Shown here in pieces: positions 165-8,553 of a stretch of 64,000 nucleotides of DNA. The notes beneath the pieces are model-generated. The model worked only from the letters and a program-made list of their open reading frames with translations. It was not told the DNA's origin and searched no databases. Position 1 is the stretch's first letter. Each line of letters opens with the position of its first letter. Origin of the DNA: Georgenia satyanarayanai. Its GTDB lineage: Bacteria; Actinomycetota; Actinomycetes; Actinomycetales; Actinomycetaceae. A program made the position numbers and the translations under genes. Location: assembly GCF_900116375.1 (NCBI RefSeq), contig NZ_UETB01000004.1, positions 62,001-126,000 on the forward strand, in the 5' to 3' direction.

Positions 165-257
165 CCGCCCACGCTAGAGGCGGGTCGCTCCAGGCACCCG
201 CCGAGAGTCCGGCCGTCCGGAATGACGACGAAACAATGCACCAGTAGATTCACGGGA

Positions 258-1100
258 ATGGACACGCAGCTGCAGTCGGAGATCATCGCCGCCCTCGAGG
301 TCATCGACCCCGACACCTTCGACGCCGCCGCCGAGGCAGAGCGTCGCATCGAGCTCCTCGCCCGCTACCTCCGGGACACCGGCGCCAAGGGCCTGGTCCT
401 CGGCATCAGCGGCGGCGTCGACTCGACGGTCGCCGGGCGTCTGTGCCAGCTCGCCTGCGAGCGGGTGCGAGAGGCAGGCGGGGAGGCGACGTTCGTGGCC
501 GTGCGCCTGCCCTACCGGGTGCAGAAGGACGAGCACGACGCCGTCGCCGCCATCGAGTTCATCGACGCCGACCTCGTGGAGACCATCGACATCGGGCCGG
601 CCACCGACGCCCTGTGGGACCAGGTCCTCGCCTCGCGCACGCCGGTCACCGACGACAAGGACGACTACCACAAGGGCAACGTCAAGGCCCGGATGCGGAT
701 GGTCAGCCAGTACGCCATCGCCGGCGCCCGCGGCATGCTCGTCGTCGGCACCGACCAGGCGGCCGAGGCGGTGGTCGGCTTCTACACCAAGTACGGCGAC
801 GGCGCCGCTGACATCACCCCGCTCTTCGGGCTGACCAAGCGCCGTGTGCGGGACATCGGGCGCCACCTCGGCACGCCCGAGGAGCTCGTCAACAAGGTCC
901 CCACGGCCGACCTCGAGTCGGACAAGCCGCTGCTGGCCGACGAGGAGGCGCTCGGCGTGCGCTACGAGGCCGTGGACGACTACCTCGAGGGCCGTGAGGT
1001 CTCGGCCGAGGACGAGGCGACCATCGTCGGCTGGTACCGCCGCACCGGCCACAAGCGCGCCCTGCCCGTGACGCCCGACGGCTACCTCGGCCGCCCCTGA
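258..1100 (+). CDS. nadE: NAD+ synthetase (ammonia-dependent type)
   Basis: Catalyses the last step of NAD+ synthesis, amidation of nicotinic acid adenine dinucleotide using ATP. From the chosen start the protein is 280 aa, the normal size for the short NH3-dependent family without a nitrilase domain. The PP-loop SGGVDS (residues 51-56) binds ATP pyrophosphate; downstream are the conserved blocks around GNVKARMRM, VGTDQAAEA and a C-terminal HKR that match NadE. I chose ATG 258 because MDTQLQSEII aligns with the usual N-terminus; an in-frame ATG at 222 would add 12 residues, and neither start has a clear Shine-Dalgarno. It is monocistronic and ends at a large inverted repeat. Confidence 0.95.
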   Translation: MDTQLQSEIIAALEVIDPDTFDAAAEAERRIELLARYLRDTGAKGLVLGISGGVDSTVAGRLCQLACERVREAGGEATFVAVRLPYRVQKDEHDAVAAIEFIDADLVETIDIGPATDALWDQVLASRTPVTDDKDDYHKGNVKARMRMVSQYAIAGARGMLVVGTDQAAEAVVGFYTKYGDGAADITPLFGLTKRRVRDIGRHLGTPEELVNKVPTADLESDKPLLADEEALGVRYEAVDDYLEGREVSAEDEATIVGWYRRTGHKRALPVTPDGYLGRP

Positions 1101-1197: not shown

Positions 1198-2148
1198 TCA
1201 GTGGGCGGCGGCGTCCTTCTTCCTGCGCGGGACGAGGTGCATGACGGCGACGACGACGGCGCCGACGACGAGCCCGATGACCGCCGAGGACAGCGTGTTG
1301 ACGAGCCAGGTGACGAAGCCGGCCAGCGCGCCCAGCCCACCGGCCACGGCCTCCTCGAGGTGGTGGACCAGCTCGTAGGGCGCGTGCCAGCCGAGGTCGT
1401 CGACCCCGACGAGCAGGATGTGGCCACCGACCCACAGCATCGCGACCACGCCGACGACGGACAGCACCGCGAGCACCTTCGGCATCCCCTTGACGAGGAG
1501 CCGGCCCACCGTCTGGGCGGCGGCGGAGTCGCGCTTCGCGAGGCTCAGCCCGATGTCGTCCATCTTGACGATGAGCGCGACCATCCCGTAGACGAGCAGC
1601 GTGATCCCCAGGGCCACGACGACGAGGATGATCGCCCGGTTGAGGAGCGGCTCGTCGGCGACCTCGTTGAGCGCGATGACCATGATCTCGGCGGAGAGGA
1701 TGAAGTCGGTGCGGATCGCGCCGCTCACCATCGTCTTCTCGTGGTCCTCGCCCTTCGCGGCGGCGGGTGTCGCCGTCTTCTCCTTGTGGTGCCCCGTCAC
1801 GTACTCGTAGAGCTTCTCCGCGCCCTCGTAGCTGAGGTAGAGCCCGCCCACCATGAGGATCGGGGTGAGCAGCCAGGGGAGGAACTGGCTGAGCAGGAGG
1901 ATCGCCGGGAGGATGAAGACGAGCTTGTTGCGCAGCGAGCCGGTGGCGATCTTCCGGATCATCGGCAGCTCGCGGTTGGCGGTGAAGCCGTGGACGTAAC
2001 GCGGGGTCACCGCGGTGTCGTCGATGACGACGCCCACGGCCTTGGTACTGGCGCGACCCGCTGCGGCCCCGATGTCATCGACCGAGGCGGCGGCGATCTT
2101 GGCCAGGGCCGCGATGTCGTCGAGCAGGGCGGCAAGGCCACCGGCCAT
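1198..2148 (-). CDS. DUF808 family inner-membrane protein (YedI-like)
   Basis: A 316-aa polytopic membrane protein. The N-terminus (AGGLAALLDDIAALAK, then ASVDDIGAAAG and the VGVVIDDTAVTPRYV block) is the signature of the DUF808/YedI family, followed by hydrophobic segments near residues 75-110, 165-195, 215-245 and 275-305. The biochemical role of the family is unknown. The ATG at 2148 is preceded by GGAAGTGAG in the transcript. It is divergent from the dehydrogenase operon that starts at 2271, so the 122-bp gap holds both promoters. Confidence 0.88.
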   Translation of the reverse strand: MAGGLAALLDDIAALAKIAAASVDDIGAAAGRASTKAVGVVIDDTAVTPRYVHGFTANRELPMIRKIATGSLRNKLVFILPAILLLSQFLPWLLTPILMVGGLYLSYEGAEKLYEYVTGHHKEKTATPAAAKGEDHEKTMVSGAIRTDFILSAEIMVIALNEVADEPLLNRAIILVVVALGITLLVYGMVALIVKMDDIGLSLAKRDSAAAQTVGRLLVKGMPKVLAVLSVVGVVAMLWVGGHILLVGVDDLGWHAPYELVHHLEEAVAGGLGALAGFVTWLVNTLSSAVIGLVVGAVVVAVMHLVPRRKKDAAAH

Positions 2149-2270: not shown

Positions 2271-3248
2271 GTGACGGCAGAGGCGTACTGGACGGTCGGG
2301 CCCGAGCAGGGAGAGATCCGGCAGGCGCCTCTCGCCCCTCCCGGCCCCGAGGAGGTGCTCGTCCGCGCCCTGTCCTCGGCGATCAGCCGGGGCACCGAGA
2401 CCCTCGTCCACCGCCACGCCGTGCCCGAGGCGGTCCGCCCGCTCATGCGGGCACCCTTCCAGGAGGGCGACCTGCCCGGTCCGGTGAAGTACGGCTACCT
2501 CTCGGTGGGCGTCGTCGAGGAGGGACCCGGTGAGCTGGTCGGCCGGCGGGTGTTCTGCCTGCACCCCCACCAGACCCGGTACGTCGTGCCCGCCTCCGCC
2601 GTCGTCCCCGTGCCCGACGACGTGCCCACCGGGCGCGCCCTGCTCGCCGGTGCGGTGGAGACCGCCGTCAACGCGCTGTGGGACGCCGCGCCGCGGCTGG
2701 GTGACCGGGTGGCCGTCGTCGGCCTGGGGATGATCGGCGCGTCCGTGGCCACCCTGCTGACCGGTTTCCCGCTGGAGCGGTTGCAGGTGGTCGACACCGA
2801 CCCCGCGCGCCGTGGGCTCGCCGACCGCCTCGGGCTGGAGCTCGTCGCGCCCGACGACGCCGCGGGGGACTGCGACGTCGTCCTCCACGCCTCCGCGAGC
2901 GAGGCCGGGCTCGCCACCGCCCTTCGTCTGGCCGGTGAGGAGGCGGAGGTGGTCGAGCTGTCCTGGTACGGCACCGACGCGCCGCGCGTCCCGCTGGGGG
3001 AGGCCTTCCACGCCCGGCGGCTGACCCTGCGCGCCAGCCAGGTCGGTGCGGTCAGCGCGGCACGCCGGACCCGCCGCACCACCACCGACCGGCTGGCGGT
3101 GGCCCTGGACGCACTGCGCGACCCGCGCTTCGACGCCCTCCTCACCGGCGCCAGCGACTTCGCCGAGCTGCCCGAGGTCATGGCCGACATCGCCTCCGGC
3201 CGGCTTCCCGCCCTGTGCCACGTCATCCGCTACCCCGAGGAGAGCTGA
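2271..3248 (+). CDS. Zinc-type (MDR) dehydrogenase
   Basis: A 325-aa medium-chain dehydrogenase/reductase with a GroES-like N-terminal half and a Rossmann half carrying GLGMIGAS near residue 145. The SRGTE segment near residue 40 and the VETAVNALWD segment fit the 'zinc-binding alcohol dehydrogenase' subfamily, but the usual catalytic Cys/His zinc ligands are not obvious, so it may be zinc-independent. I chose GTG 2271 because AGGA lies about 8 nt upstream; an ATG at 2205 would add 22 poorly conserved residues. Its stop directly abuts the start of the PTPS-like gene, so the two are co-translated. The substrate is unknown; the context points to a GTP-derived pyrimidine or pterin pathway. Confidence 0.85.
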   Translation: MTAEAYWTVGPEQGEIRQAPLAPPGPEEVLVRALSSAISRGTETLVHRHAVPEAVRPLMRAPFQEGDLPGPVKYGYLSVGVVEEGPGELVGRRVFCLHPHQTRYVVPASAVVPVPDDVPTGRALLAGAVETAVNALWDAAPRLGDRVAVVGLGMIGASVATLLTGFPLERLQVVDTDPARRGLADRLGLELVAPDDAAGDCDVVLHASASEAGLATALRLAGEEAEVVELSWYGTDAPRVPLGEAFHARRLTLRASQVGAVSAARRTRRTTTDRLAVALDALRDPRFDALLTGASDFAELPEVMADIASGRLPALCHVIRYPEES

Positions 3249-3635
3249 GTGTTCAGCGTGACGGTCCGCGACCACATGATGGTCGCCCACTCCCTGCCCG
3301 ACCCGTTCTTCGGGCCCGCGCAGGGTCTGCACGGCGTCACCTACGTCGTCGAGCTGACCTTCTACCGCCCCGAGCTCGACGAGCACGGTGTGGTCATCGA
3401 CATCGGCGCGGCCACCGAGCGGCTGGCCGAGGTGACCGGTGAGCTGCGGTACCGGAACCTCGACGACCTCGAGGTGTTCGCCGGCACGGTCACCACCACC
3501 GAGGTGGTGGCCCGGCACGTGGCCCACCGGGTGGTCGAGGGTCTGGACACGGCGCCGTTCACGGCGGTCGAGGTCACCCTCCACGAGCACCCCGACGCCT
3601 GGGCCACCTACCGCCTCGACCTCACCAGCCCGTAG
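3249..3635 (+). CDS. 6-pyruvoyl-tetrahydropterin synthase/QueD-like protein, diverged active site
   Basis: A 128-aa T-fold protein matching the PTPS/6-carboxytetrahydropterin synthase family in length and motif order: VAHSL (first zinc His, residue 13), LHGVTY in place of LHGHxY, GVVIDIG in place of GMVxDF, RYRNLDD in place of DHxxLN, and a C-terminal LHEHPD in place of the xxET motif. One zinc-ligand His is Val, the catalytic Cys before LHG is missing and the catalytic DH is RY. It is therefore unlikely to make standard PTPS or QueD products. GTG 3249 follows the dehydrogenase stop with no gap. It belongs to a three-gene operon with the dehydrogenase and glycosyltransferase. Confidence 0.82.
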   Translation: MFSVTVRDHMMVAHSLPDPFFGPAQGLHGVTYVVELTFYRPELDEHGVVIDIGAATERLAEVTGELRYRNLDDLEVFAGTVTTTEVVARHVAHRVVEGLDTAPFTAVEVTLHEHPDAWATYRLDLTSP

Positions 3636-3639
3636 CGCC

Positions 3640-4695
3640 GTGACGCCGCTGCGGTTCGTCGTCCCCGCCCGGGGAGCCGGGCCCAGCGGCGGTGACGTCT
3701 ACGACTCCCACCTGGCCCGCGCCTGGGACGCCGAGCACGGCCGGGTCGACGTCCTCGCGCTGCCCGGGACGTGGCCCCGGCCCGGCGCGACCGAGCGTCA
3801 CGCGCTGGCGCTCGCGCTGCGGACCACGGGCACGGTGCTGCTCGACGGCCTCGTCGGCAGCCCCTGTCCCGAGGAGGTGGAGCACGCCGTCGCCGCCGGC
3901 GCACGCGTCGTCCTGCTGGTGCACCTGCCCCTGCCCGCCGAGGCCGGGCTGCCCCCGCGGGAGGCCGAGCGGCTCGCCGGGCTCGAGTCGCGCACCGTCC
4001 GCGCCGCCTCCGTCGTCGTCACCACGAGCCACTGGGCGGCCGGCGACCTCGTGCGCCGCTACGGCCGCGACGACGTCGTCGTCGCCGTGCCGGGTGCCGT
4101 CCGCGGTCCGGCGGCGACGGGCAGCCGGCCACCGCACCTGCTCGTGCTCGGCGCGCTCACCGCGGTGAAGAACCACGCCGTCCTCGTCCCGGCGCTCGCC
4201 ACGCTGCGGGACCTGCCCTGGCAGGCGACCTTCGCCGGACCGACCGGTGCCCAGCCCGCCGTCGCCGGCGGTGTCGCCCGCGCGCTCGCGAAGGCTGGAC
4301 TGGCGGGCCGGGTGGACCTGCCGGGCTCGGTGACCGGCGCGGACCTGGAGGCGCTGTGGGTGCGCACCGACCTGCTGCTCGTGCCCTCGCTCGTCGAGAC
4401 CTACGGGCTCGTGGTCACCGAGGCGCTCGCCCGCACCGTCCCCGCCGTCGTCGCGGCCGGGACGGGCGCGGTGGAGGCGCTCACCGGCTCGCCCACCCCG
4501 CTCCCCACCGACGACGTCGGGCCCGGGGCTGCCGTGCCGCCCACCGACCCGGCCGCCTGGGAGCGGGTCCTGCACCGCTGGCTCACCACCCCGCAGCTGC
4601 GGGCGGGGTGGCGGGCGGCGGCCCAGGTGCGCCGGGAGCAGCTGCGCACCTGGGCCGACACCGCAGCGGACCTACGGCGCGGGCTCCTCGGCTGA
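3640..4695 (+). CDS. GT-B glycosyltransferase, family 4-like
   Basis: A 351-aa protein with two Rossmann-like halves. The C-terminal half has the nucleotide-sugar site typical of GT4 enzymes: a GALTAVKNH lysine segment, then LVPSLVETYGLVVTEALA with the E-x7-E pair. The N-terminal half starts with RFVVPARGAGPSGGDVYD, whose glycines sit where GT4 enzymes bind the acceptor and diphosphate. GTG 3640 lies 4 nt after the PTPS-like stop. The last 24 nt overlap, tail to tail, the end of the RibA/RibD gene on the other strand. From its operon the acceptor may be a pterin or pyrimidine; this is inference, and a lipid or protein acceptor is not excluded. Confidence 0.85.
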   Translation: MTPLRFVVPARGAGPSGGDVYDSHLARAWDAEHGRVDVLALPGTWPRPGATERHALALALRTTGTVLLDGLVGSPCPEEVEHAVAAGARVVLLVHLPLPAEAGLPPREAERLAGLESRTVRAASVVVTTSHWAAGDLVRRYGRDDVVVAVPGAVRGPAATGSRPPHLLVLGALTAVKNHAVLVPALATLRDLPWQATFAGPTGAQPAVAGGVARALAKAGLAGRVDLPGSVTGADLEALWVRTDLLLVPSLVETYGLVVTEALARTVPAVVAAGTGAVEALTGSPTPLPTDDVGPGAAVPPTDPAAWERVLHRWLTTPQLRAGWRAAAQVRREQLRTWADTAADLRRGLLG

Positions 4696-6081
4696 GCGCA
4701 GCGCGCGCAGGTCGAGCTCGGTGCACACGTCCTCACCGAGGAGGAACCGGCGTGACCCCGTGCGGATCGCGTCGGCCAGCAGGTCCGAGCCGGCGAACCG
4801 CAGGCCCGGGACGCCGTCGCCGATGAGCACCGGCGCGGTCGTGAGGTAGAGGCGGTCGAGCACCCCGGCGCGGAGGAAGGCCGAGACGACCCGCCCGCCG
4901 CCCTCGACGAGCACCCGTCCCAGGCCCCGTCCGCGCAGCAGCCCCAGCACGCGCACGGGATCGGCCGGGCCGTCGTCGTCCAGGCGGACGACGTCGACGT
5001 GCTCCGGCAGGTCCGTCGGTGCCGTGGCCCCTGGGCCGAGGAGCCACAGCGTGGGCGCGGCCCCGTCGGTGAGCAGGCGAGAGGTGAGCGGGGCGCGGCC
5101 CCGGGGGTCGAGCACCACCCGGACCGGGTTGTGCCCGGGGACCGCACGGACGGTGAGACGCGGGTCGTCCGCGGTCACCGTCCCCACCCCGACGACGACG
5201 GCGTCGACCAGTGCCCGCATCCGGTGCAGGTGCTCCCGGTCCGCCTCGCCGGTGACGAACTCCGCGTCACCGGTCCGCGAGGCGATGAACCCGTCCAGGC
5301 TCTGCCCGAGCTGACCGATGACGTAGTCCGTGCCGAGCGAGACGAGGGGGCCGTACCGGTCGACGAGCTCGTGGGCCGCGTCCTGCGGACCGACCACCGG
5401 GACGGCGCCGCCGAGCAGCGCCTGCCACGGGTCGTCGACGAGGGGGCGGTCGTGCCGCATCCGCTCCCGCTTGGTGGCGAGGTAGGTCTCGTTCTGCGGG
5501 TGGGCCGGGACGATGAGGCTGACCCGCTCGGTCACCTCGATCCCCAGGTCCGTCAGGGCCTCCTCCTTCGCCGGGTTGGAGGACAGCAGGCGGACCCGGC
5601 TGATCCCGAGGTCGCGCAGGATGTCGGCCGACTGGTCGTAGCTGCGGGCGTCGGCAGCGTGCCCCAGGGCCACGTTGGCGTCGACGGTGTCCGCCCCGAG
5701 GTCCTGCAGGGCGTAGGCCCGCAGCTTCTCCAGCAGCCCGATCCCGCGCCCCTCGTGGCCGCGGACGTAGACGACGGCCCCCTCGCCCTCGGCGGCCACC
5801 GCGGCGAGGGCGGCGTCCAGCTGCTCCCCGCAGTCACACCGCCACGAGCCGAACGCGTCACCGGTGAGGCACTCGGAGTGCACCCGTACGAGCGGGGTGG
5901 TCAGTGGGCCGGGGTCGGTCAGGCCGCGCACCAGCGCGACGTGGGTGGTGCCGTTGACGTCGCGGTACCCCAGCATGCGGAAGGGGCCGTGCCGGGTCGG
6001 CAGGACGGTCTCCACCTCCCGCTCGACGACAGGAGCGTCCGGGGGGAGGCGTCGGTGGGCGCGTTCCTCGAGCTGTGACAT
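4672..6081 (-). CDS. GTP cyclohydrolase II fused to RibD-type reductase domain
   Basis: A 469-aa two-domain enzyme. Residues about 20-215 are GTP cyclohydrolase II: SECLTGDAFGSWRCDCGEQL holds the three zinc cysteines, EGRGIGLLEKLRAYALQD the catalytic loop with its Tyr, followed by the DTVDAN block. Residues about 245-465 are a RibD C-terminal/dihydrofolate-reductase-like domain (GQLGQSLDGFIA, DPRLTVR, VEGGG). No DHBP synthase or deaminase domain is present, unlike housekeeping RibBA or full RibD. It could hydrolyse GTP and reduce the ribosyl chain. ATG 6081 is chosen; a TTG at 6117 has a good GGAG and is coupled to the HAD stop, so a 12-residue longer form is possible. Confidence 0.9.
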   Translation of the reverse strand: MSQLEERAHRRLPPDAPVVEREVETVLPTRHGPFRMLGYRDVNGTTHVALVRGLTDPGPLTTPLVRVHSECLTGDAFGSWRCDCGEQLDAALAAVAAEGEGAVVYVRGHEGRGIGLLEKLRAYALQDLGADTVDANVALGHAADARSYDQSADILRDLGISRVRLLSSNPAKEEALTDLGIEVTERVSLIVPAHPQNETYLATKRERMRHDRPLVDDPWQALLGGAVPVVGPQDAAHELVDRYGPLVSLGTDYVIGQLGQSLDGFIASRTGDAEFVTGEADREHLHRMRALVDAVVVGVGTVTADDPRLTVRAVPGHNPVRVVLDPRGRAPLTSRLLTDGAAPTLWLLGPGATAPTDLPEHVDVVRLDDDGPADPVRVLGLLRGRGLGRVLVEGGGRVVSAFLRAGVLDRLYLTTAPVLIGDGVPGLRFAGSDLLADAIRTGSRRFLLGEDVCTELDLRALRSAEEPAP

Positions 6082-6117
6082 GGGGGTGATTCTGCCTTCG
6101 GAGGGGGGCCTGACCAA

Positions 6118-6801
6118 CTAGCGCTCCGGGAGGAGCGAGGCGAGGTCCGGGACGGCGACGGCGGCGCCGGCCGCGAGGAGCTCGGCGCGGCGAGCAGGGT
6201 CGGGGGACAGGCCGATGCAGGGCATCGCGGCCGCGGTCGCCGCGTGGACGTCGGAGGCGCTGTCGCCCACCATGACGGCCTCGCCCGGGCCGGTGCCGGC
6301 CTCGCGCGCGGCCGCGAGCAGCATGCTGGGGGAGGGCTTGAGCCGCTCGAGCGCGTCGGGCGTGCGGCCGTGGACGGGCAGCGCGGTGAGCGGTGGCCCG
6401 CCGTGGGCGAGGACCGCCGTGACCGCTCCCGCTGCGTTGTTCGTGACGACGGCGACGCCGGTGCCCCGCTCGTGGCACGCCCGGACGAAGGCGCCGGCCG
6501 CTGCGACGGGGCGAGCCGCGGCGGCCGCCTCGAGCTCCCGCTCGGTGCACCACCGCTCGACGGCCCGCGCGGTGGCGGCGTCCCGCCGGGAGACGAGCCG
6601 CAGGAGCTGGACGTGGTCGGTCTGCCGCGCCAGCTCGTCGTCGAGGACGACACCGAGCGACACCGCCAGCTCGCGTGCCCCCGCCGCGACCCGGAGGAAC
6701 TTCTCGCCGGGCAGCAGCCGGGCGAGGGGGCCGTCGAAGTCGAGCACCACCAGCCGGCAGCGGTGCAGCAGCGCCCGTACGGCGTCCACGGAGTCGGTCA
6801 C
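6118..6801 (-). CDS. HAD-superfamily phosphatase
   Basis: A 227-aa HAD hydrolase with all four motifs: LDFDGPLA (nucleophile and acid Asp, residues 20-23), VVTNN (motif II), LKPSP (motif III Lys) and GDSASDV (motif IV). The cap between motifs I and II is alpha-helical (C1 type), as in phosphoglycolate-phosphatase-like enzymes. Its stop is adjacent to an alternative start of the cyclohydrolase gene, so the two form an operon. A reasonable role is to dephosphorylate the ribosyl or ribitylaminopyrimidine phosphate made by the neighbouring enzyme, a step that HAD phosphatases perform in riboflavin synthesis; this is inferred from context. Confidence 0.85.
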   Translation of the reverse strand: MTDSVDAVRALLHRCRLVVLDFDGPLARLLPGEKFLRVAAGARELAVSLGVVLDDELARQTDHVQLLRLVSRRDAATARAVERWCTERELEAAAAARPVAAAGAFVRACHERGTGVAVVTNNAAGAVTAVLAHGGPPLTALPVHGRTPDALERLKPSPSMLLAAAREAGTGPGEAVMVGDSASDVHAATAAAMPCIGLSPDPARRAELLAAGAAVAVPDLASLLPER

Positions 6802-6879: not shown

Positions 6880-8553
6880 CTACGCGGACGACTTCGCCCG
6901 CGTCGCGGGGTAGCGGATGGACTCGACCATCTCCTGCACGTGCTCCGACGGTGGGCGGGTCAGCGTCGAGACCGTGACGGTCACGACGAAGTTGACCAGG
7001 GCGCCGATGGCGCCGATGCCCTCGGGCGAGACTCCGAGGACGTGCTCGTTCGCGCTGAGGCCGAACACCTCGAGCGTGTAGAGCATGTAGCCGCCGGTGA
7101 ACAGCAGACCGGTGAGCATGCCCGCGGCCGCGCCGGTGGCGTTGGCCTTCTTCCAGAAGATGCCCAGGATGAGGATCGGGAAGAACGTCGATGCCGCGAG
7201 CCCGAAGGCGAAGGCCACGACCTGTGCGACGAACGCGGGCGGGTTGAGGCCGCCGAAGATCGCGACGACCACGGCTCCGGCCATGGCGAGCCGGCCGACG
7301 AGCATCTGCTTCCTCTCCGACGCCCTCTCCTTGGAGACCATCCGGAAGTAGATGTCGTGCGAGGTGGCGGAGGAGATGACCAGCAGCAGCCCGGCAGCGG
7401 TGGAGAGTGCCGCCGCCATGCCGCCCGCGGCCATGAGCCCGATGATCGGCGCGGGAAGGCCGCCGATCTCGGGGGAGGCGAGGACGAGGATGTCGTTGGA
7501 GATGATGAGGTCCGCGCCCGACGCCGCCGAGTTGGAGACGCTCTCGATCAGCCCACCGCCGTTGTTGAGCGTGACGTAGCCGGCGTCCGCCCAGGGAGCG
7601 ATCCACTCCGGGAGGTCCTGCGCCGTGGCGCCGTCGACGTCACGCAGCAGGTTGAGGCTGGTGAAGGCGCCGACCGCCGGTGCCGTCAGGTAGAGCAGCG
7701 AGATGAAGAACAGCGCCCAGAAGGCCGAGAACCGGGCGCCACGCACCGTCTTGGTGGTGTAGAAGCGGATGATGACGTGCGGCAGCCCGGCGGTGCCGAG
7801 CATGAGGGAGGCGGTGACCAGGAAGACGTCGAGCTGCCCACCGGGACGTCCGACGAACGCCTCGGTGAACTGGTCGAGCCCGAACTCCACCCGCAGGGCG
7901 TCGAGCTCGGCGAGGATCGACCCGTAGGAGATCTGCGGGATCGGGATGTTCGTCATCTTCTGGGCCACGGCCACCGCCGGGATCAGGTAGGCGGTGATGA
8001 GGACGACGTACTGCGCCACCTGGGTGTAGGTGATGCCCTTCATGCCGCCGAGCACGGCGTAGAAGAAGATGACGGCGGCCGCGACGACCACCGCCCACTC
8101 GGCGCTCAGCCCGAGGAACCGGGCGAAGACCACGCCACCACCGGTCATCTGGCCGACGACGTAGGTGAAGGACACGACGACGGCGGCCACCGCCGCCACG
8201 AACCGCACCGTGTCGCTGTAGCGCTCGCCGACGAACTCGGGAACGGTGAACTTGCCCCACTTGCGCAGGTACGGCGCCAGCAGGAGGGCGAGCAGCACGT
8301 AGCCGCCGGTCCAGCCCATGAGGTAGACCGAGCCGTCGGAGCCGAGGAAGGCGAGCATGCCCGCCATGCCGATGAAGCTCGCCGCGGACATCCAGTCGGC
8401 CGCGATGGCCGCACCGTTGGCGATGGTCGGCACACCCTGGGAGGCGACGTAGAACTCCCGGGTCTCCTTCACCCGGGAGCGCCAGGCGATGTAGAGGTAG
8501 ATGCCGAACGTGAGGATGAGGAAGAAGGCGGTCCAGAACTGCATGTCGCTCAC
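6880..8553 (-). CDS. actP: Sodium:solute symporter, cation/acetate (ActP-like)
   Basis: A 557-aa transporter of the SSS family with about 13-14 membrane segments. ADWMSAASFIGMAG, GLPHVIIRFYTT and the AALSTAAGLLLVISSATSHD block match ActP/MctC-type carriers of acetate, pyruvate and similar monocarboxylates. The second residue block, DMQFWTAFFLILTFGIYL, is the first membrane segment. The start overlaps the end of the DUF485 gene by 4 nt, the usual yjcH-actP arrangement. The exact substrate cannot be told from sequence. Confidence 0.92.
   Translation of the reverse strand: MSDMQFWTAFFLILTFGIYLYIAWRSRVKETREFYVASQGVPTIANGAAIAADWMSAASFIGMAGMLAFLGSDGSVYLMGWTGGYVLLALLLAPYLRKWGKFTVPEFVGERYSDTVRFVAAVAAVVVSFTYVVGQMTGGGVVFARFLGLSAEWAVVVAAAVIFFYAVLGGMKGITYTQVAQYVVLITAYLIPAVAVAQKMTNIPIPQISYGSILAELDALRVEFGLDQFTEAFVGRPGGQLDVFLVTASLMLGTAGLPHVIIRFYTTKTVRGARFSAFWALFFISLLYLTAPAVGAFTSLNLLRDVDGATAQDLPEWIAPWADAGYVTLNNGGGLIESVSNSAASGADLIISNDILVLASPEIGGLPAPIIGLMAAGGMAAALSTAAGLLLVISSATSHDIYFRMVSKERASERKQMLVGRLAMAGAVVVAIFGGLNPPAFVAQVVAFAFGLAASTFFPILILGIFWKKANATGAAAGMLTGLLFTGGYMLYTLEVFGLSANEHVLGVSPEGIGAIGALVNFVVTVTVSTLTRPPSEHVQEMVESIRYPATRAKSSA

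Follow-up and report, generated by a model that had tools for sequence, protein, structure and literature searches.

A cluster of five genes in the genome of Georgenia satyanarayanai probably encodes a dedicated pathway to a diaminopyrimidine or pterin glycoside, the locus being a Georgenia-type form of a widespread orphan cluster. It is found in a stretch of 64,000 nucleotides (contig NZ_UETB01000004.1, positions 62,001 to 126,000; the whole stretch is referred to as the window), and is composed of two convergent groups: a trio encoding a dehydrogenase, a PTPS-like protein and a glycosyltransferase, and a pair encoding a fusion of GTP cyclohydrolase II (GCHII) with the C-terminal reductase of RibD (RibD_C), along with a HAD-family phosphatase (Table 1). 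This reading draws on gene content, on the co-occurrence of the genes, on the persistence of the cluster in genomes in which riboflavin genes were not detected, on residue changes in the PTPS-like protein and on a pattern connecting one tyrosine of GCHII with a neighboring creatininase gene. An original prediction, made from the DNA sequence, had proposed a GTP-derived route to a glycosylated pyrimidine or pterin, and the present data support it in part, with the product one that we infer. The orphan kind, represented by SCO6650 of Streptomyces coelicolor, is known; new is the Georgenia-type form, characterized by a fused GCHII-reductase, by the finding of no methyltransferase or membrane protein gene beside the cluster, and by a probable double duty of GCHII. 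To our knowledge, what SCO6650 and the GCHII SCO6655 do has been an open question since about 2006-2008, and a literature search, conducted mostly without subscription papers, found no paper describing this cluster.

Recurrence of the Gene Neighborhood

The surroundings of the PTPS-like gene were compared in 127 loci: 37 from an order-level sample (own genome excluded), 80 from named genomes (the best 80 of at least 581), four from genomes G002, G003, G004 and G012, and six from plasmids. Neighbors were counted within 8 kb of the PTPS-like gene, with at least 6 kb present on both sides in 111 of the 127 loci and less than 6 kb on one side in 16, and the loci are not independent (L113 and L203, for example, have 89% of 40-mers in common). 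A dehydrogenase gene is present in 124 of the loci and a glycosyltransferase gene in 115, while a RibD_C reductase of either type is present in 74, GCHII in 64, and both of the latter in 54. Further neighbors are a methyltransferase (72 loci), LPG_synthase_TM (62), a CDP-alcohol phosphatidyltransferase (52), a sulfatase-like protein (26), a creatininase (14), a HAD phosphatase (5) and an inositol-phosphatase type (3). Among the 37 order-level loci, the dehydrogenase is found in 37, the glycosyltransferase in 33, the RibD_C reductase in 24 and GCHII in 19, and, since only 0 to 3 copies of GCHII are present per genome (34 genomes scanned), this grouping is more than chance would provide. The neighborhood survey was one of the checks suggested with the original prediction, and the two gene groups do co-occur across many genomes. 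The usual partners (methyltransferase, a flippase-like membrane protein, CDP-alcohol phosphatidyltransferase and creatininase) were not part of that prediction, nor were the lost PTPS residues described below.

The window has the hallmarks of the SCO6650-type cluster in possessing a PTPS-like protein of the 3d7j family, an adjacent medium-chain (MDR-type) dehydrogenase and a family 4 glycosyltransferase (GT4), with GCHII and a deaminase-free RibD_C reductase nearby. A methyltransferase and LPG_synthase_TM, also typical of such clusters, were not found among the eight window genes identified, and none were seen beside the trio in the Georgenia loci L113 and L201-L203. As to the HAD phosphatase, its matches (tblastn, E 1e-6) in the five loci are all from the same genus or Georgenia (L074, L113, L201-L203), with weaker matches in L076 and L114, and it was thus rejected as a core gene of the cluster.

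The PTPS-like protein is encoded in 38 of the 248 genomes of the order sample, and in a phylum sample 88 of 296 genomes match its profile (A1), eight of them at more than 190 bits. Other families of the phylum, f34 for example, have weaker relatives, of about 65-98 bits, that may constitute a sister subfamily. The cluster is distributed over Actinobacteria, some Proteobacteria and some plasmids, with loci in Kushneria, Larsenimonas, Vreelandella, Rhizobium and Prosthecomicrobium, and with plasmid loci in Agrobacterium, Methylosinus, Peteryoungia, a member of Chromatiaceae and a member of Rhodobacteraceae. One example of variation is Vreelandella populi (L186, 10396-12372), in which the glycosyltransferase and the methyltransferase form a single reading frame of 658 aa, adding a further functional link between the two. 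Another is the dehydrogenase gene, missing beside the PTPS-like gene in three Streptomyces loci of the 127 (L172, L174, L211) and, as in L211, in L219 and L220, which belong to six more plasmid loci (L219-L224) considered outside the 127. On the Streptomyces plasmids (L211, L219, L220) the lone PTPS-like gene is near genes for cupin, MBL-fold and sigma-70 proteins and a BTAD regulator. In the proteobacterial plasmid loci L212, L213 and L223 a cytochrome b gene adjoins the reductase gene (by annotation), and L224 has one by similarity, which may point to a function in redox chemistry or at the membrane.

Relation to Riboflavin Synthesis

Evidence for a route separate from riboflavin is presented by three genomes of the same genus (G002, G003 and G004, each 99% complete) and one of the same family (G012, 98% complete), in which no match to RibH, RibB or riboflavin synthase was found, in a search that did not extend to RibD. 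All four encode exactly one GCHII, and it is inside the cluster of dehydrogenase, PTPS-like, glycosyltransferase, reductase and GCHII genes (L201, L202, L203, L205). Judging by gene content, these genomes look like those of riboflavin auxotrophs despite encoding GCHII, and, with the cluster maintained in them, a non-riboflavin route is likely. A further genome, G005, says little: it is 57% complete, with a match to riboflavin synthase and none to RibH, RibB or GCHII.

In the genome that contains the window, ribD, ribE, ribB and ribH are together on contig C24 (locus L073, 3886-6800), with no GCHII domain there, and the fusion is the only GCHII of the genome (PF00925 search), and therefore it probably serves riboflavin as well. 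Thus the view of the original prediction, that the set is unlikely to be the riboflavin operon, is upheld by the four relatives and qualified by this genome. A rib operon does exist elsewhere, as the prediction had suggested checking, but without GCHII, and the lack of another ribA, which the prediction had named as evidence against itself, is what was found. In a genome of the same genus, G001, a second GCHII gene sits between ribB and ribH, making the fusion spare for riboflavin. Sixteen genomes of the order sample have one match spanning both halves of the fusion: ten have two GCHIIs and six have no other, and all six of the latter have ribH and ribB, the ribB match of G017 being in two frames. 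This split match (G017:C21:16058-16623) may reflect a broken gene or an assembly error. The trio and the fusion occur together in 14 of the 16. A plain riboflavin operon was rejected as the identity of the cluster, since ribB, ribE and ribH are on C24 and not beside GCHII, and since the cluster is present in G002, G003, G004 and G012, where those riboflavin genes were not detected.

The PTPS-Like Protein

By far the closest solved relative of the PTPS-like protein is SCO6650 (PDB 3d7j; 196 bits with profile A1, the next structure scoring 35 bits), a protein that reportedly lacks zinc, the catalytic triad and PTPS activity. A sequence recorded for Georgenia satyanarayanai shares 87% identity with the PTPS-like protein of the window. 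QueD, the 6-carboxytetrahydropterin synthase, employs a catalytic Cys, an Asp-His pair, three zinc-binding His and a Glu anchoring the pterin. Compared to the Escherichia coli enzyme, the position of Cys27 is occupied by a nearly invariant Gln (or Ala, under another gap placement), the position of Asp70 by variable residues and that of His71 by Tyr, while Val or Ala takes the place of the zinc ligand His33. Conserved are His16, His31 and Glu110, the pterin-anchoring Glu being present in 14 of 14 alignment rows. The signature CxxxHGH is given for QueD/COG0720 in PMC5041015. With the catalytic residues gone, an active QueD or PTPS enzyme was rejected as an assignment. From the residues lost and kept, binding of a 2-amino-4-oxo ring is to be expected, without QueD chemistry.

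GCHII, Creatininase and the Reductases

The three zinc Cys of GCHII (Cys54, Cys65 and Cys67, E. coli numbers) are kept in all 65 cluster GCHIIs (64 loci plus the window), and the window protein also possesses the equivalent of Tyr105. Position 105 varies with the neighborhood: all 52 GCHIIs without a creatininase neighbor (window included) have Tyr, whereas the 13 from creatininase loci have Met (6), His (5), Gln (1) or Tyr (1), the exception with Tyr being Vreelandella L186. When four later plasmid loci are added and the window is left out, Tyr is replaced in 14 of the 15 GCHIIs that have a creatininase neighbor and in 0 of the 53 that have none. Removing redundancy at 75% identity leaves 8 of 9 and 0 of 23, and control GCHIIs have Tyr in 12 of 12. 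The Tyr-less sequences form one clade (96/80), which means a single origin followed by residue drift, and a Fisher test of Tyr loss versus creatininase thus overstates the case.

SCO6655 is said to make a formylated product because of its Met120. Two cluster creatininases scanned have the MftE model as the best match, below the cut-off, with ArfB weak. A study of a bacterial creatininase-family enzyme shows it to be a formamidase converting the formylated product of GTP opening into the diaminopyrimidine, and describes its GTP-opening partner as undiscovered (PMC9478397). The residue pattern suggests that this one diaminopyrimidine is reached in two ways, either by a Tyr-type GCHII acting alone or by a GCHII without the Tyr assisted by a creatininase-family formamidase. 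Taken together, this pattern, the product ascribed to SCO6655 and the formamidase work point to the diaminopyrimidine as an intermediate common to both, with the window on the Tyr route. GCHII itself has likely been recruited more than once, as the cluster sequences belong to several lineages with control GCHIIs falling between them, and at least two changes are forced for the Tyr group on a tree that carries a warning of long branches.

The cluster reductases divide into two types, of 37 and 18 rows. In a tree whose bootstrap is not settled, neither type groups with the seven RibD sequences, the clade of which has full support. For the 37-row type two changes are needed on the tree, and a single origin is neither shown nor excluded. 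One protein of the second type was scanned, and the model nearest to it is that of an archaeal reductase, TIGR01508, below the cut-off. The own-genome paralogues L007-L012 have no usable reductase stretch and were left out of the tree. Away from the PTPS locus, five f14 genomes have GCHII next to a reductase of the cluster type, with 57-71% identity in the best pieces.

Proposed Pathway and Alternatives

The pathway would begin with the GCHII half opening GTP into 2,5-diamino-6-ribosylamino-4(3H)-pyrimidinone 5'-phosphate, an activity predicted from the zinc Cys and the Tyr105 equivalent. The fused RibD_C half would then reduce the ribosyl to a ribityl chain, as its domain content suggests, and would do so without prior deamination, since the set has no deaminase domain, and the HAD enzyme would remove the phosphate. 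The PTPS-like T-fold protein, unable to use the zinc and Cys-Asp-His chemistry of QueD, may use its conserved Glu to bind the 2-amino-4-oxo pyrimidine or a pterin derived from that compound. Finally, from what is typical of their families, the dehydrogenase would oxidize or reduce a side-chain alcohol and GT4 would add a sugar. Since genes for a methyltransferase and a flippase-like membrane protein accompany the set in roughly half of the related loci, the product may often be methylated and either membrane-associated or exported. We regard as evenly balanced a broader proposition, of a widespread, sometimes plasmid-borne pathway that diverts the first riboflavin intermediate to a glycosylated, often methylated, membrane-handled diaminopyrimidine or pterin, with a T-fold protein repurposed by swapping catalytic residues, GCHII recruited more than once, and two routes to the first intermediate.

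A number of observations weigh against the dedicated pathway. The fusion is the sole GCHII in the window's genome and in 5 of the 15 others with a match spanning both halves, and in two of the six single-GCHII fusion genomes (G052, G123) it is present with no PTPS match, so that by itself the fusion could do no more than supply riboflavin. In the order sample RibH is found in every one of the 38 genomes with the PTPS-like gene (0 of 38 without RibH) versus 154 of the 210 others, a link to riboflavin prototrophy, although this link is broken by G002-G004 and G012, which lie outside that sample; RibH, RibB, GCHII and the PTPS-like gene are absent alike from G007 of the same family. The HAD phosphatase is not generally conserved, being nearly confined to Georgenia-type loci. 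The association of the two operons holds for many loci but not for this gene, nor for G052 and G123. Neither GCHII nor the reductase is nearby in 43 of the 127 loci (18 in Arthrobacter, Pseudarthrobacter or Paenarthrobacter, seven in genus g12, the remainder mixed). The g12 loci have flanking genes in common with the Arthrobacter-like loci, and the genes for TadA, uracil phosphoribosyltransferase and PAP2 that adjoin the trio in the latter are presumed to be flanking genes. Eight genomes without nearby GCHII or reductase (seven of g12, and G081) give weak, RibD-level reductase matches only. In 10 loci with GCHII and creatininase no reductase was found, and the ribityl step may not be universal.

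Some of these observations would be explained if the fusion and the HAD enzyme were the housekeeping GCHII and phosphatase of riboflavin synthesis, located beside an unrelated operon of the trio. That would agree with the absence of any other GCHII from the genome and its rib operon, with G052 and G123 and with the occurrence of RibH, and HAD enzymes can dephosphorylate the riboflavin intermediate (PMC12051542). We nevertheless consider it unlikely, as the fusion is kept inside the cluster in the four relatives without matches to RibB, riboflavin synthase and RibH, as GCHII, a deaminase-free reductase or both are near the PTPS-like gene in 84 of the 127 loci, as the cluster GCHIIs come from more than one lineage, and as the trio accompanies the fusion in most of the genomes where one match spans both halves (14 of 16). 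More doubtful still is a lipid-linked or membrane redox cofactor as the product, with the CDP-alcohol phosphatidyltransferase joining ribityl phosphate or its sugar to a lipid, and the flippase-like protein then moving the conjugate. The frequencies of CDP-alcohol transferase, LPG_synthase_TM and sulfatase-like genes (52, 62 and 26 of the 127 loci) and the cytochrome b genes of L212, L213, L223 and L224 would suit such a product, but these families are broad, cytochrome b is present in 2 of the 127 loci, none of these genes is among the eight window genes identified, and none was seen beside the trio in Georgenia L113 and L201-L203 (sulfatase not being among the queries). Very improbable, finally, is a pathway of the biopterin-glycoside type, in which GTP cyclohydrolase I would provide dihydroneopterin triphosphate, the PTPS-like protein and the dehydrogenase would produce a tetrahydropterin, and the glycosyltransferase would add a sugar, GCHII being incidental. 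A PTPS fold, an oxidoreductase and a glycosyltransferase do make up the logic of a pterin glycoside, but the catalytic Cys, Asp and His of PTPS and one zinc ligand are missing, SCO6650 is said to be without PTPS activity, and a RibD-type reductase recurs in the cluster. Overall, the dedicated route to a diaminopyrimidine or pterin glycoside is the reading that we prefer.

Gene Organization

The five open reading frames (ORFs), their convergent layout and the overlap of the last codons are all where they had originally been predicted (Table 1), and a domain scan confirmed that the deaminase domain is absent from the fusion. Of its two possible starts, ATG at 6081 looks likelier than TTG at 6117. 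The dehydrogenase passes no Pfam cut-off, and its label comes from sub-threshold MDR matches (BchC, 43.6 bits) and from its plasmid homologues, annotated as 'zinc-binding alcohol dehydrogenase.' The 24-bp overlap was rejected as a special feature, since the same overlap is present in the same-genus locus L074, and it looks like gene packing. No creatininase gene was found beside the window cluster.

Table 1. Coordinates of the cluster and its flanking genes in the window.
Feature	Position	Strand	Remarks
NAD synthase	222-1100		flanking gene
DUF808 protein	1198-2148		flanking gene
Medium-chain (MDR-type) dehydrogenase	2271-3248	+	325 aa; sub-threshold MDR matches, BchC-like
PTPS/T-fold protein, SCO6650 type	3249-3635	+	128 aa; PF01242, 87 bits
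Family 4 glycosyltransferase (GT4)	3640-4695	+	351 aa; PF00534, PF13692; GTG start (read from sequence)
Overlap of two convergent reading frames	4672-4695		24 bp
GCHII-RibD_C fusion, whole ORF	4672-6117	-	481 aa
RibD C-terminal (ribosyl-to-ribityl) reductase half of fusion	4675-5412	-	PF01872, 137 bits
GCHII half of fusion	5421-6117	-	zinc Cys and Tyr105 equivalents kept
HAD-family phosphatase	6118-6801	-	227 aa
Sodium/solute symporter	6880-8553		flanking gene

Significance and Comparison with Known Systems

The survey provides a defined gene set, with partner genes, for the SCO6650-type orphan cluster. As the set outlives the riboflavin genes in some relatives of Georgenia, its product could be sought there without a riboflavin background, and one residue along with one neighbor would predict which product each cluster GCHII makes. 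Annotating such genes as 'ribA' or '6-carboxytetrahydropterin synthase' is misleading, and the presence of this GCHII is not by itself a sound basis for inferring riboflavin prototrophy.

As to known systems, the solved structure that best matches the GCHII half is that of a RibBA (4i14), with the zinc Cys and the Tyr kept. Unlike RibBA or a riboflavin operon, the window set has no RibB, RibE, RibH or deaminase, its GCHII is fused to a RibD_C reductase, and such clusters persist in relatives in which no RibB, riboflavin synthase or RibH was detected. With QueD (COG0720) the PTPS-like protein shares the domain family, the pterin-anchoring Glu and two of the three zinc His, but it has lost Cys27, Asp70, His71 and His33; the function of one COG0720 subfamily, PTPS-V, is called unclear in PMC5041015. 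Another parallel is BrbF, a formamidase of the creatininase family from Sinorhizobium and Brucella that turns the formylated product into the diaminopyrimidine (PMC9478397): a creatininase is present in 14 of the 127 cluster loci, whereas the BrbF work concerns riboflavin and the window cluster is without creatininase. Finally, S. coelicolor SCO6650 is the best solved relative of the PTPS-like protein, and the Streptomyces loci L175, L185 and L221 combine a CDP-alcohol transferase, the dehydrogenase, the PTPS-like protein, the glycosyltransferase, a methyltransferase, a creatininase and GCHII. The window cluster differs in having its reductase fused to GCHII and in the finding of no creatininase, methyltransferase or membrane protein beside it. 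Its GCHII also has Tyr at the position that is Met in all six Streptomyces GCHIIs examined.

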